From Candidatus Saccharimonadia bacterium (GTDB lineage Bacteria > Patescibacteriota > Saccharimonadia > Saccharimonadales > Saccharimonadaceae), in NCBI GenBank assembly GCA_023257815.1, contig JALRBJ010000010.1, forward strand, positions 1-34,723: a DNA stretch of 34,723 nucleotides. Reading direction: 5' to 3'. Below the pieces are notes generated by a model, which saw nothing but the letters and a program-made list of their open reading frames with translations, was not told the DNA's origin and searched no databases. Positions 5,086-14,443 of this stretch are shown here, in pieces. The position numbers and the translations under genes are program-made. Every line of letters begins with the position of its first letter. Position 1 is the stretch's first letter.

Positions 5086-5161
5086 GCCGCTGTAGCTCAG
5101 CTGGTAGAGCGGCGCTTTCGTAAAGCGTAGGTCACCGGTTCAAATCCGGTCAGCGGCTCCA
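5086..5161 (+). tRNA. tRNA-Thr (anticodon CGT)
   Basis: Acceptor stem GCCGCTG/CAGCGGC, D stem GCTC/GAGC, anticodon stem GCGCT/AGCGT with loop TTCGTAA (anticodon CGT, reading ACG), and T stem ACCGG/CCGGT. The discriminator is T and CCA is encoded, so the 3' end is UCCA; this matters for the thrS leader, whose bulge contains the complementary UGGA. The next gene begins only 11 bases downstream, so tRNA and mRNA are probably made as one transcript and separated by tRNA 3' processing. Confidence 0.95.
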
Positions 5162-9835: not shown

Positions 9836-9912
9836 TGGTGGGCGATAGAGGATTCGAACCTCTCACCTCTTCAACGTCAATGAAGCGCTCTAGCCAAATG
9901 AGCTAATCACCC
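9836..9912 (-). tRNA. tRNA-Val (anticodon GAC)
   Basis: Acceptor stem GGGTGAT/ATCGCCC with one G-U pair, discriminator A, encoded CCA. The anticodon stem CTTCA/TGAAG encloses loop TTGACGT with anticodon GAC (reads GTC). The T stem is GAGAGG/CCTCT around TTCGAAT. Confidence 0.95.
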
Positions 9913-9961: not shown

Positions 9962-9990
9962 TTGCAATCGAGGGATTAGTTCGATATGAT
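9962..9990 (+). promoter_or_regulatory. thrS promoter
   Basis: TTGCAA (9962-9967), a 17-base spacer and TATGAT (9985-9990). The predicted transcription start is near 9997, giving a 174-base leader before thrS. Confidence 0.7.
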
Positions 9991-9996
9991 TTACTT

Positions 9997-10158
9997 AAGC
10001 GATGACGCAGCCTAACCACCTGTCGAGCACGTGTAAGCGGTTGCTGGGGCACGTAAAATCCCTAGGAGCAAGAGTAATAGCCAAGGTGGAACCTCCGGAT
10101 AACGGACCAAGGCACGCTAGGAAGATTTGTCTTCTGTAGAGCGTGTTTTTAATTTTTT
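9997..10158 (+). promoter_or_regulatory. Candidate T-box leader controlling thrS, with terminator
   Basis: The leader contains an antiterminator-like element: GCC/GGC and GG/CC pairs flanking tandem A-A mismatches, a seven-base bulge TGGAACC (10087-10093), and an upper stem TCCG/CGGA (10094-10097 with 10103-10106). In T-boxes the UGGN of the bulge pairs with the uncharged tRNA 3' end; here UGGA complements the UCCA end of tRNA-Thr at 5086-5161. A hairpin at 10004-10024 has a nine-base loop CCTAACCAC holding the threonine codon ACC (10015-10017), resembling an ultrashort Stem I with the specifier in its terminal loop. A terminator hairpin (CACGCT 10113-10118 with AGCGTG 10140-10145) and two T runs follow. 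The antiterminator and terminator overlap by only about one base, which is atypical. Confidence 0.65.
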
Positions 10159-10170
10159 AAGGAGTATATT

Positions 10171-12015
10171 ATGAGCGATCAACACGACGAACTGCATGCA
10201 ATGAGGCATAGTTTGGCACATATTACGGCTCAGGCCGTTCAGCATTTATGGCCAAATGCTAAATTTGGTGTAGGTCCGGTGGTAGAGAATGGATTTTATT
10301 ATGACATTGATTTGGGCGATACAAAGATTTCGGAAGCAAATTTTGGCAAGATCGAAAAAGAAATGCGCAAAATTATCGCTGCCAATTATACGTTCGATCG
10401 AAGTGAGAAGCCTATCGATGAAGCCCTCGAGTGGGCAAGAGCAGCTAATCAGCCATACAAGATTGAGCTACTCAACGATCTTAAGCGCGAAGGTACAACC
10501 CTAGCAAGTGAGCTTGATGCTGCCATGATGGGCATGGAGTTACCGGCTGGCATAGGAGGTTCTGCACACCAAGAGGTAAAAAGTGTCGTTGACGTATCAT
10601 TTTATACAGATGGTGACTTTACCGATCTATGTCGTGGTCCACACGTTGAGTCTACAGGCAGGGTAGGTGCCTTTAAGCTGATGCGTGTGGCCGGCGCATA
10701 TTGGCGAGGCAATGAGAAGAATCCGCAGATGCAGCGGCTCTACGGTGTTGCGTTCGCCACTCAAGAAGAATTGAACCAGTATCTTGAGATGCTTGAGCAG
10801 GCTAGACTACGTGACCATCGTAGGTTGGGTAAGGATCTTGATCTGTACACCATGAGTTCATTAGTTGGCTCTGGTTTACCTATGTTTACTCCACGGGGCA
10901 CAATTCTACGTGACTTAGCATCGCAGTATTCTAATCAGTTGCGTCAACAAAGAGGATTTCAAAAGGTTTGGACACCTCATATCACCAAGCAGGATCTATA
11001 TGAGGCGTCAGGCCACTGGGCTAAGTTTGGTGATGAATTGTTCTTGGTTACTAGCCAGGAAACAAGTGACAAAATGGCATTAAAGCCAATGAATTGTCCG
11101 CATCATACTCAGATTTTTGCTTCCCAACCGCGAAGCTATCGAGATATGCCAGTGCGTTATCTTGAAACAACTACTGACTATCGTGATGAAAAAACAGGCG
11201 AGTTAGGTGGCTTAAATCGAGTTCGTTCACTGACTCAAGATGATAGTCATGTGTTTGCACGGCCTGATCAAATCGAACAAGAGATAGATGGACTTTTGGC
11301 AAGCGCTCGTGAGCTGTACGGTACACTTGGCATGAAGTTACGAGTACGGCTTAGCTATAGGGACGACACAGACGCCTATCTGGGTGATAAAGAGCTTTGG
11401 AACTCAGCCCAAACACAATTGAAAGCGGCGGTGGAAAAGAATCAGCTCGATTACTTTGAGCAGGATGGTGAGGCTGCATTCTATGGTCCAAAAATTGACT
11501 TTATGGCCACTGATGCAATCGGTCGTGAACACCAAGTTGCGACGGTACAGCTTGATTTCGTCCAGCCTGAGCGATTTAAATTGCAATATGCAGACAATGA
11601 AGGTAATTCTCAAACTCCCGTTATGATTCATTGCGCATTACTTGGTAGTATTGAACGATTCTTGAGTGTGTTTATAGAACATACCAGCGGTTGGTTTCCG
11701 TTCTGGTCTGCCCCTGAGCAGCTAAGAATCCTAACAATCAACGATACCGTTTTGGATTATGTTGATGAAATTAGAACGATTTTATCAGATACAATTCTTA
11801 TGAAACCAGTAAAATACAACGAGGTACGATTTACAACGGATGATAGAAATGAATCTCTTGGTAAGAAAATCCGTGAGGCTACTGCGATGAAAATCCCTGT
11901 GCAGTTAATCGTCGGGCCGAAAGACAAAGAAGTCCGTGAAGTCAGCGTGCGTACTCAAAGTGCTGAAGAGAAAATAACTATTGATAATCTAGCGGATTAC
12001 CTTAAGAATCTATGA
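10171..12015 (+). CDS. thrS: Threonyl-tRNA synthetase lacking the TGS domain
   Basis: Charges tRNA-Thr. At 614 residues it starts directly in the second-domain (SAD) editing region; the N-terminal TGS domain of about 60 residues found in most bacterial ThrRS is absent. Editing-site elements HSLAH (residues ~13-17) and CRGPH (~152) are present. The class II core has motif 1 around PRGTILRDLASQYSNQLR, the zinc ligands (Cys of PMNCPHH near 309, His of DDSHVF near 360, His of IHCALLGS near 490), a motif 2 region in YRDEKTGELGGLNRVRS and motif 3 GSIERFLSVFIEH. An anticodon-binding domain ends the protein. TAAGGAG lies eight bases before the ATG, just after the leader terminator. Confidence 0.96.
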   Translation: MSDQHDELHAMRHSLAHITAQAVQHLWPNAKFGVGPVVENGFYYDIDLGDTKISEANFGKIEKEMRKIIAANYTFDRSEKPIDEALEWARAANQPYKIELLNDLKREGTTLASELDAAMMGMELPAGIGGSAHQEVKSVVDVSFYTDGDFTDLCRGPHVESTGRVGAFKLMRVAGAYWRGNEKNPQMQRLYGVAFATQEELNQYLEMLEQARLRDHRRLGKDLDLYTMSSLVGSGLPMFTPRGTILRDLASQYSNQLRQQRGFQKVWTPHITKQDLYEASGHWAKFGDELFLVTSQETSDKMALKPMNCPHHTQIFASQPRSYRDMPVRYLETTTDYRDEKTGELGGLNRVRSLTQDDSHVFARPDQIEQEIDGLLASARELYGTLGMKLRVRLSYRDDTDAYLGDKELWNSAQTQLKAAVEKNQLDYFEQDGEAAFYGPKIDFMATDAIGREHQVATVQLDFVQPERFKLQYADNEGNSQTPVMIHCALLGSIERFLSVFIEHTSGWFPFWSAPEQLRILTINDTVLDYVDEIRTILSDTILMKPVKYNEVRFTTDDRNESLGKKIREATAMKIPVQLIVGPKDKEVREVSVRTQSAEEKITIDNLADYLKNL

Positions 12016-12647
12016 AACGACTTGTTATAGCAATTGATTGTGATGATGTTTTAACAGATACGTTGCCAAAAGTTGTTGATGACTATAACCGGTTGTACAG
12101 TACAAACGTCGGACTGGAGCACATGTATGTTGATCATAATAGTATCCCCGAGGTTTTTGGTACTAAAACTGGCCAAGAAGCTATCCAACGATTTCATGCT
12201 ATCTATCGTCAAGAGGGCTACTATGAGGCGCTTTTGCCCGTCGAAGGCGCAGTCGAGGCGATTAGTAGGCTTGCCAAGAAACACGAGCTACATGTTGTAA
12301 CTGGTCGGCAGAGCTTCCTGAAGTCTGCTACCAAATATACGCTAGATAAATACTTTCCTGATGCATTCACATCCGTAGAACATACTAATTACTACAAGGA
12401 TGACACTGAAAAAACGGCAACTCATCGTTCAAAGGCTGAAGTCTGCAAAGCAATTCATGCGGACATATTAATTGACGACCATATCGTCCATGGCGAAGAT
12501 GTTTTAAACGCTGGTGTCGAATCAGTAATCTTATTTGGGGACTACCCATGGAATAAACGAGATAGCTTGGTGCCAGGGATGACCCGATGCAGTAATTGGA
12601 AAGAAGCATTAAGTGAGATTGAGAGAATCAATGGAAGCAGACGCTAA
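12012..12647 (+). CDS. HAD-family phosphatase resembling 5'(3')-deoxyribonucleotidase
   Basis: The 211-residue protein has HAD motif I at the N-terminus (IDCDDVLTDTLP, nucleophile Asp9 and acid Asp11), motif II VVTGRQ (~94-99), a Lys in SKAEVC (~138) and motif IV ILIDDH (~149-154). The pattern and length resemble the NT5C/YqfW-type nucleotidases, which remove phosphate from (deoxy)nucleoside monophosphates. Substrate is inferred only by resemblance. Its ATG overlaps the thrS TGA in an ATGA junction, so translation is coupled and the gene falls under the same leader control. Confidence 0.8.
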   Translation: MKRLVIAIDCDDVLTDTLPKVVDDYNRLYSTNVGLEHMYVDHNSIPEVFGTKTGQEAIQRFHAIYRQEGYYEALLPVEGAVEAISRLAKKHELHVVTGRQSFLKSATKYTLDKYFPDAFTSVEHTNYYKDDTEKTATHRSKAEVCKAIHADILIDDHIVHGEDVLNAGVESVILFGDYPWNKRDSLVPGMTRCSNWKEALSEIERINGSRR

Positions 12648-12948
12648 CTTTCGCAGTAGGGTGGAGGCTCTTATGGCGCAGGTTCCGTATGGCCAAGTAA
12701 CAACGTATGGTGATTTAGCGGGACTGGCTGGCCAGGCCAACGCGAGTCGGATCGTAGGCGGAATAGCTCATTTTGGTAATCCTGACTTGCCATGGCATAG
12801 ATTAGTAAATCGATTCGGTGGTTTAGCTGCTGGCTTTCATGGTGGTCGCGAAGCACAAGCTCAACTGTTAGAGCAAGAAGGGATTGCTTGCACAAATCAC
12901 ATCATCGATAATTTTGGGGATATTAGGTGGCGACCAAACCTGGATTAA
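12631..12948 (+). CDS. Alkyltransferase-like (ATL) DNA-binding protein
   Basis: The 105-residue protein matches the C-terminal DNA-binding domain of O6-alkylguanine DNA alkyltransferase: VPYGQVTTYGDLA (Tyr26 for base flipping), ASRIVGG (Arg40 finger) and the active-site segment PWHRLVN. Tryptophan (Trp55) replaces the reactive cysteine of PCHR, as in ATL proteins such as E. coli YbaZ/Atl. ATLs recognise O6-alkylguanine but cannot repair it alone and pass the lesion to nucleotide excision repair. ATG 12631 is chosen over an upstream frame extension because GAGAG precedes it and it matches the family start. It overlaps both the HAD gene (17 bases) and miaA (22 bases). Confidence 0.88.
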   Translation: MEADANFRSRVEALMAQVPYGQVTTYGDLAGLAGQANASRIVGGIAHFGNPDLPWHRLVNRFGGLAAGFHGGREAQAQLLEQEGIACTNHIIDNFGDIRWRPNLD

Positions 12949-13796
12949 TAGCTATAGTTGGGCCTACAGCAAGTGGCAAAACCGCGTTAGCTATAAATAT
13001 CGCAGAGCAATTTAATGGTGAAATAATTTGTGCTGATTCACGAACGGTCTATAAAGGCATGGATATTGGCACAGCAAAGCCTACTGCGGATGAGCAGGCT
13101 CGTGTGAGGCACTGGGGGCTTGATTTAGTCGAGCCTGGTGAGCGATTTACTGCAGCTGACTTTCAAAAGTATTCACGTGGGGTTATTGCAGATATTCAGT
13201 CTCGTGGCAAGCTACCCCTCCTGGTTGGAGGTACTGGATTGTACGTAGATGGGGTGTTGTATGATTTCACATTCAACTCTCCTACAGATAGCTTGTCGCG
13301 TGAAACATTAGAAAATATGGATGTTAGTGAATTAATAGAATATTGCAATAAAAACAACGTTACTTTACCTGAAAATATGAAGAACAAACGTCATCTCATT
13401 GCCGCCATTGAACGGAAAAACATAACTTCAATCAGTAAGTCTTTGTTAAAGCATAATCATTATATTGTAGGAATAGCTACAAATATGAATATTTTACGAA
13501 CAAGAATTGAAAAAAGAACTGAACATATTTTTGACAGCAATATTGAAGGAGAAGCTAGTATGTTGGGCAAAAAATATGGCTGGAATTCTGAAGCTATGAC
13601 AGGAAACATTTATCCGTTGATAAAAAGACATCTTGAAGAAGACACCTCGATTGAAGAAATCAAAGATAAGTTTTGTATTTTGGACTACCGGCTTGCTAAA
13701 CGTCAGATGACTTGGTTTAGGCGAAACCCTGATATTATGTGGTCTAATTTTGCTGATGCAAATGAGTATATAAACTCTCTATTCGCTCGTGAATAA
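12927..13796 (+). CDS. miaA: tRNA dimethylallyltransferase
   Basis: Transfers dimethylallyl to N6 of A37 in tRNAs reading UNN codons, stabilising codon-anticodon pairing. The P-loop GPTASGKT is at residues 12-19, followed by ADSRTVYKGMDIGTAKP (normally ADSMQVY; here Arg-Thr replace Met-Gln) and VGGTGLYVDGVLYD. The C-terminal AKRQMTWFRR motif is intact. At 289 residues it is slightly short. The central part from about 13,260 to 13,680 is visibly richer in A/T and in Asn, Lys and Ile codons than its neighbours. It starts at GTG 12927 inside the ATL gene, so it is coupled to the thrS operon. Confidence 0.92.
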   Translation: MATKPGLIAIVGPTASGKTALAINIAEQFNGEIICADSRTVYKGMDIGTAKPTADEQARVRHWGLDLVEPGERFTAADFQKYSRGVIADIQSRGKLPLLVGGTGLYVDGVLYDFTFNSPTDSLSRETLENMDVSELIEYCNKNNVTLPENMKNKRHLIAAIERKNITSISKSLLKHNHYIVGIATNMNILRTRIEKRTEHIFDSNIEGEASMLGKKYGWNSEAMTGNIYPLIKRHLEEDTSIEEIKDKFCILDYRLAKRQMTWFRRNPDIMWSNFADANEYINSLFARE

Positions 13797-13840: not shown

Positions 13841-14443
13841 ATGATTGACGCACTATTTGGATCAAAGACACGTATTAAGTTATTGCACCTATTCCTGAAC
13901 AATCCAGGCAAGTCGTTTTATGTACGCGAAATTACTCGTTTGATTGACGAGCAGATCAACTCAGTTCGTCGCGAACTTGCCAACATGATGAAGGTCGGTA
14001 TTATCAAAAGTGATACAGCTGACAATAAGCTGTATTATGAAGTTGATCAACGGTATGAACACTACGTTCCATTACGTGCAATATTTGGTGATGATCAAGA
14101 AGCGACCGAAGCAGTAAGTGAACCCAAGCAGTCTACACTTGATTGGCAAACGAAGCTGGATGAAATTGGCGGTGTCCGTCTTGCTATTATGGCGGGTGTT
14201 TTTGTTCCTGGCAGTGCCAGTAAACTTGATTTACTACTTGTGGGTAATCTTGCCTCGGCCAAAGTGAAAGCCTTTATTAAGACACTTGAGAAAAAAGAAG
14301 GTAGGGAGCTCAACTATAGTGTTGTTAGTTACGATGAGTTCTATTACAGATTATCTATTCGTGATAAATTTATTACAGAGCTTACAAGCAACAAGCACGT
14401 TATATTGCGTGATACTGAGCAAATTCTAGAGAAGCAGAAATAG
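13841..14443 (+). CDS. Winged-helix DNA-binding protein with nucleotidyltransferase-like C-terminal domain
   Basis: Residues 1-75 form a winged helix (FGSKTRIKLLHLFLNNPGKSFYVREI as helix 1-2, then INSVRRELANMMKVGIIKSD as recognition helix and wing). After a linker, residues ~115-195 have the strand pattern LDLLLVGN and SYDEFYYRLSIRDKF that resembles minimal nucleotidyltransferase (MNT-like) domains, but the catalytic GS-x-DxD signature is not present. I infer a transcription regulator with a sensor or degenerate enzyme domain. A GGGTAGAG sequence precedes the ATG by five bases, and a possible TACACT -10 box lies near 13,807. It is co-transcribed with the MBL-fold gene seven bases downstream. 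Confidence 0.7.
   Translation: MIDALFGSKTRIKLLHLFLNNPGKSFYVREITRLIDEQINSVRRELANMMKVGIIKSDTADNKLYYEVDQRYEHYVPLRAIFGDDQEATEAVSEPKQSTLDWQTKLDEIGGVRLAIMAGVFVPGSASKLDLLLVGNLASAKVKAFIKTLEKKEGRELNYSVVSYDEFYYRLSIRDKFITELTSNKHVILRDTEQILEKQK

Follow-up and report, generated by a model that had tools for sequence, protein, structure and literature searches.

The leader of the thrS gene (positions 9997-10158) appears to be a transcription-attenuating T-box riboswitch in a minimal form, with an ultrashort Stem I, and on the basis of the comparison of leaders across relatives we put the probability of this reading at about 0.93. The window, i.e. the whole stretch of 34,723 nucleotides that was analysed, carries thrS on the plus strand at 10171-12015, and the encoded threonine--tRNA ligase matches TIGR00418 with 598 bits (cut-off 384). 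The named sequences most closely related to this ThrS belong to Saccharibacteria, which places the source genome in Candidatus Saccharibacteria. The first-pass annotation had described a UGGAACC bulge between two helices, followed by a terminator and thrS, and a hairpin near the predicted transcript start that shows ACC in its loop; a check of the sequence of the leader agreed with this description.

All the parts of the leader lie on the plus strand. A sigma-70-like promoter (TTGCAA-N17-TATGAT, 9962-9990) predicts a transcript start at about 9997, which is the first base of Stem I. The ultrashort Stem I (9997-10030) is composed of a C-stem, a kink-turn, an upper stem and a 9-nt terminal loop. 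The C-stem has only 2 bp in this leader (GC 9999-10000 with GC 10027-10028), and the kink-turn is predicted from its sequence signature (G10004 A10005 and G10025 A10026, with a 3-nt bulge). The upper stem corresponds to a codon hairpin of 17 nt (10007-10023), in which GCAG (10007-10010) pairs with CUGU (10020-10023) and the 9-nt loop, CCUAACCAC, contains the specifier codon ACC at 10015-10017. Directly 3' of Stem I, a predicted IIA/B-type pseudoknot (10029-10054) pairs ACGUG (10029-10033) with CACGU (10050-10054), the latter strand being supplied by the loop of a hairpin at 10041-10071 (UUGC 10041-10044 with GCAA 10068-10071). The inner GGG/CCC helix of this hairpin covaries in an alignment of 30 leaders, and its outer part was recognised by inspection only. 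A conserved purine-rich run, AAGAGUAAUAG (10070-10080), precedes the antiterminator (10080-10113), which consists of helix A1 (GCC-AA-GG 10080-10086 with CC-AA-GGC 10107-10113), the bulge UGGAACC (10087-10093) and helix A2 (UCCG 10094-10097 with CGGA 10103-10106). When this segment was folded alone, the minimum was exactly the bulged structure, at -8.8 kcal/mol. The intrinsic terminator (10109-10158; stem from about 10109/10111 to 10149; -16.0 kcal/mol) reuses the 3' strand of A1 as its 5' arm, and its stem runs into UUUUUAAUUUUUU (U5AAU6, 10146-10158); a simple terminator scan of the window did not list it. The Shine-Dalgarno sequence AAGGAG (10159-10164) is found 3' of the terminator, outside both alternative hairpins, and is followed by the ATG of thrS. 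The folding energy of the whole leader is by itself unremarkable (z -0.28); the case for the leader is a comparative one.

The thrS genes of the order and of named genomes were collected, and yielded 80 distinct Saccharibacteria leaders with the bulge; a complete Saccharibacteria genome (TM7i, L108) also has a member. Thirteen other genomes of the genus were searched by sequence alone; 11 of them matched the leader DNA, as did two more members of the family. All 80 leaders, which were gathered by the motif GGUGGAACC, have UGGA in the bulge; in a looser scan for UGGNACC, thrS antiterminators showed no base other than A at the fourth bulge position. The A2 hairpin is also present in all 80, and its complementary closing strands differ widely in sequence. 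The retention of bulge, A2 hairpin and specifier in these leaders indicates a structure well beyond chance.

When 54 leaders were aligned, a structure of 22 pairs was 92.9% paired, as compared to 79.1% in shuffles and 25-42% in slid versions. Changes on both sides were observed at 16 of the 22 pairs, and the covariation score was reached by none of 500 shuffles, a test that overstates significance because related sequences enter the pair counts. The slid controls and a held-out model are less exposed to this kinship bias. With a cleaner alignment of 30 leaders, from which the window's own type was excluded, the structure was 95.4% paired, and 15 of 21 pairs changed on both sides. The covariance model trained on this set (R2) matched the window leader with 66.5 bits (E = 4.9e-14), the next match in the window having E = 0.72, and it also recovered thrS leaders from other Patescibacteria. 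Compensating changes occur in Stem I, in the pseudoknot and in the antiterminator of the Saccharibacteria thrS leaders. In particular, the upper Stem I helix is about 99-99.5% paired with all four pairs covarying, and the pseudoknot is 94% paired in the 30-leader alignment, with compensating changes at one pair; both GA dinucleotides of the kink-turn are invariant (54/54). From these patterns we infer the kink-turn and the pseudoknot. The helices flanking the bulge do covary across the leaders of relatives, where the first-pass annotation had proposed to look, and its T-box with an ultrashort Stem I and the specifier in the terminal loop passed the comparative tests.

The same annotation had coupled this T-box to a transcription terminator, and the relatives support it. 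A terminator hairpin with a U-tract was found in 77 of the 80 leaders (the other three have interrupted U-tracts), and in all 77 its 5' arm begins 2-6 nt inside the 3' strand of A1, so that antiterminator and terminator are mutually exclusive. These counts also bear on a class II translational T-box, as in actinobacterial ileS, in which the Shine-Dalgarno sequence would be hidden or freed and the terminator would be secondary. An ultrashort Stem I with the specifier in its loop is indeed a hallmark of class II, and in the window the segment CCUCC, formed by ACC and the 5' strand of A2, might base-pair with AAGGAG. However, only 19 of the 80 leaders offer five matching bases between this segment and the Shine-Dalgarno region, the sequence of the A2 strand is free to vary (UCC, GCC, GUC, ACC), and the Shine-Dalgarno sequence, standing 3' of the terminator, is left out of both hairpins. 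Its sequestration was rejected as a general output, and we consider a translational T-box very improbable here.

The specifier columns of the 54 aligned leaders contain ACC (46), ACG (6) or ACU (2) and nothing else. This fixed frame is the sole one that always encodes one amino acid, and neighbouring columns vary; other frames of the loop were discarded, the one that starts a base earlier giving AAC, CAC or UAC. When relatives were checked for loss of ACC or UGGA, as had been suggested, the codon was found to drift only within ACN, and UGGA was kept. All three tRNA-Thr genes of the source genome (anticodons CGT, GGT and TGT) end in UCCA, and among its other recovered tRNAs only those for Lys and Cys clearly share the discriminator base of tRNA-Thr. 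The tRNA-Thr gene of the window (5086-5161, plus strand) had been noted for a UCCA end complementary to UGGA, which implied it as the partner. It does have this end, but its anticodon is CGT, which reads ACG and not ACC, and it was therefore rejected as the cognate; the ACC reader, tRNA-Thr(GGT), is located outside the window, on contig C17. A fixed anticodon-loop/T-loop pattern missed this gene because it has ATGGTAA and GGTTCAAGCC at those places. In the ileS leaders of Saccharibacteria the codon is AUC and the bulge is UGGU in nearly all, with one exception. Codon and bulge therefore change together with the gene (ACN and UGGA before thrS, AUC and UGGU before ileS). A tRNA-Ile, whose end would be ACCA as a partner of UGGU, was not among the recovered tRNAs of the source genome.

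This matching weighs against an operator that mimics tRNA-Thr and is bound by ThrRS, with a terminator downstream, as might be suspected from the identity of the gene and from a leader that starts with a hairpin of the size of an anticodon arm. In E. coli, the translational operator of thrS likewise controls the gene from its leader; it mimics tRNA and is bound by ThrRS, and has no codon, UGGN bulge or terminator. In the present leaders, by contrast, the loop holds the codon ACN instead of the anticodon NGU, with drift at the third codon position only, the bulge UGGA complements the tRNA end instead of resembling it, and ileS is preceded by the same layout with AUC and UGGU, which makes such an operator extremely improbable. 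Attenuation by a leader peptide, or a plain constitutive terminator, to which the codon and UGGA would be coincidental, would agree with the presence of a terminator and with the ordinary folding energy of the single leader, but is hardly conceivable given the covariation in 54 and 30 sequences (0 of 500 shuffles), the invariant bulge, and a hairpin with a single threonine codon and no run of them.

According to the attenuation reading, the first 34 nt or so would fold behind RNA polymerase into the kink-turned hairpin displaying ACC, and the pseudoknot would form right after. The anticodon of tRNA-Thr(GGT) would then pair with ACC. An uncharged tRNA could pair through UCCA with the UGGA of the bulge and stabilise A1 and A2; the 3' strand of A1 would be withheld from the terminator, and thrS and the downstream genes would be transcribed, as expected from T-box biology. 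With charged tRNA-Thr the contact between UCCA and UGGA would not be possible, and the terminator would form. Points that count against this reading are the short C-stem of the window leader, the missing Stem I head and usual S-turn hairpin, the failure of RF00230 to match the window, and the lack of a detectable leader in about half of the Saccharibacteria genomes searched.

The genes that would fall under this control are a HAD/NT5C-like gene (12012-12647), an alkyltransferase-like gene (ATL, 12613-12948) and miaA (12927-13796), all on the plus strand. A MiaA homologue is found 3' of thrS on the same strand at 77 of 80 thrS loci, and at 26 of the 27 loci with a leader. It is plausible that HAD, ATL and miaA are co-transcribed with thrS under the leader, considering the overlap of the genes on one strand and their conserved order. 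The open reading frame 3' of miaA (13841-14443) gave no Pfam or NCBIfam match, and is 87-89% identical in close relatives, above its neighbours.

Of 79 leaders, 77 have a -10-like hexamer just 5' of Stem I, as compared to 12-33 of 75-78 when control positions were shifted, and in 59 leaders the hexamer ends 6 or 7 nt before Stem I. The transcript most likely begins with Stem I, since -10 boxes about 6 nt upstream of it argue that no part of the leader is missing on the 5' side and that there is no longer Stem I. The elbow-binding double T-loop head of Stem I is absent, the 9-nt loop being placed directly above the 4-bp stem. A divergent tRNA-Val(GAC) gene (9836-9912, minus strand), which is kept in several relatives, lies just 5' of the thrS promoter.

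The usual S-turn Stem II hairpin was not found in its usual place between Stem I and the pseudoknot, and there is no room for it, as no more than about 2 nt separate Stem I from the 5' strand of the pseudoknot. The hairpin of the pseudoknot has purine bulges or mismatches in groups of leaders, differing from group to group, and may contain an S-turn-like element. Stem III is optional, being absent from the window leader and present in other genera; in many relatives it is inserted within the purine run as AAGUG-Stem III-AA, which fits the discriminator signature RRRxG-Stem III-AA (PMC7583486). The literature attributes importance in tRNA binding both to the elbow-binding Stem I head and to the S-turn, and describes the S-turn of Stem II as essential where Stem I is truncated (PMC7583486). 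The architecture of the thrS leader, as predicted, apparently departs from this published requirement. A minimal T-box class extending across Patescibacteria, in which tRNA-Thr would be sensed by a kink-turned codon hairpin, a pseudoknot and the discriminator, with neither the Stem I head nor the Stem II S-turn, seems to us a reasonably probable interpretation. If the leaders work, the set of parts sufficient for co-transcriptional tRNA sensing would be smaller. They would also offer a means of sensing amino acid supply to ultrasmall bacteria that depend on a host, a group in which very little is known of gene regulation.

Within the order, 198 genomes were searched with a model trained on Saccharibacteria leaders, which matched 93, about half having no detectable leader. 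In a sample of 380 genomes from across the phylum the model matched 42, of which 26 do not belong to the order. Some 17 of the Patescibacteria matches that were examined stand before thrS, with UGGA kept and, in most, an ACN hairpin. Several host-associated Saccharibacteria from gut and rumen have thrS with no recognisable leader (e.g. L141-L165), suggesting that the T-box leader was lost in many host-associated lineages. The first-pass annotation had also proposed a search with the Rfam model RF00230, and this did not detect the leader: the window yielded no hit at E<=5, and none of 119 Saccharibacteria genomes reached the gathering threshold (93 bits). Some sister leaders gave weak matches, such as a thrS leader of genome G101 (36 bits) and the ileS leader of the source genome (20.5 bits). 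At E<=0.001, RF00230 matched 58 of 192 Patescibacteria genomes, with only 4 above the cut-off. Inspection of the translations 3' of these matches identified ileS, valS, tyrS, aspS, glyS, proS and trpE/anthranilate synthase. Together, the matches and their downstream genes point to T-boxes as a general and common feature of Patescibacteria. In the Saccharibacteria lineage, predicted T-boxes turn out to be frequent and not isolated, and the thrS leader, as modelled, is the most reduced form among the Patescibacteria T-boxes examined.

Within a set of loci spanning Patescibacteria (L302-L331), genome G229 has nine RF00230 matches. In Patescibacteria T-boxes, the base at the fourth position of the bulge often agrees with the tRNA to be expected, e.g. 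UGGC before aspS. The T-box-like leader of the source genome at G000:C32:25817-26037 (L167:1501-1721) precedes a gene of the inositol-monophosphatase family (suhB) and ileS; it has AUC in the loop of GUGG-CUAUCAA-CCAC, the bulge UGGUACC and a terminator. An ileS leader of genome G052 (L178:1500-1700) has the AUC specifier and the bulge UGGAACC instead of UGGUACC, which may derive either from a changed discriminator base of tRNA-Ile or from a decayed switch. A further T-box-like leader (L183, G150:C3:174338-174521) with UGGGACC, the bulge expected for tRNA-His, precedes a D-Ala-D-Ala dipeptidase-like gene; its RF00230 match (27.7 bits) is weak and could be due to chance.

A search of the open-licence literature found no T-boxes described in Saccharibacteria, Patescibacteria or candidate phyla; subscription papers or the TBDB tables may mention them. 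With class I T-boxes (RF00230; B. subtilis thrS, tyrS and glyQS) the thrS leaders have in common the specifier, the kink-turn of Stem I, the 7-nt UGGNACC bulge between A1 and A2, the purine flanks of Stem III, a terminator sharing the 3' strand of A1 and an aminoacyl-tRNA synthetase gene downstream. They differ from class I in a Stem I of only about 34 nt, which bears the specifier in its terminal loop and lacks the double T-loop head, and in that no S-turn Stem II hairpin separates Stem I from the pseudoknot. The ileS T-boxes of Saccharibacteria also present the specifier in the loop of a short hairpin and have a terminator and a UGGN bulge, whereas they use AUC, and their middle region is longer and contains GAA and AGUA strands that resemble those of an S-turn Stem II. 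The class II ileS T-boxes of actinobacteria (M. tuberculosis and N. farcinica) share with the thrS leaders the ultrashort Stem I, the codon in the terminal loop, the kink-turn, the IIA/B pseudoknot and the antiterminator-like discriminator. They are distinguished from them by the Stem II S-turn, which was not found in the thrS leader, and by the gene and the output, which in Saccharibacteria would be thrS and a terminator in place of Shine-Dalgarno sequestration.
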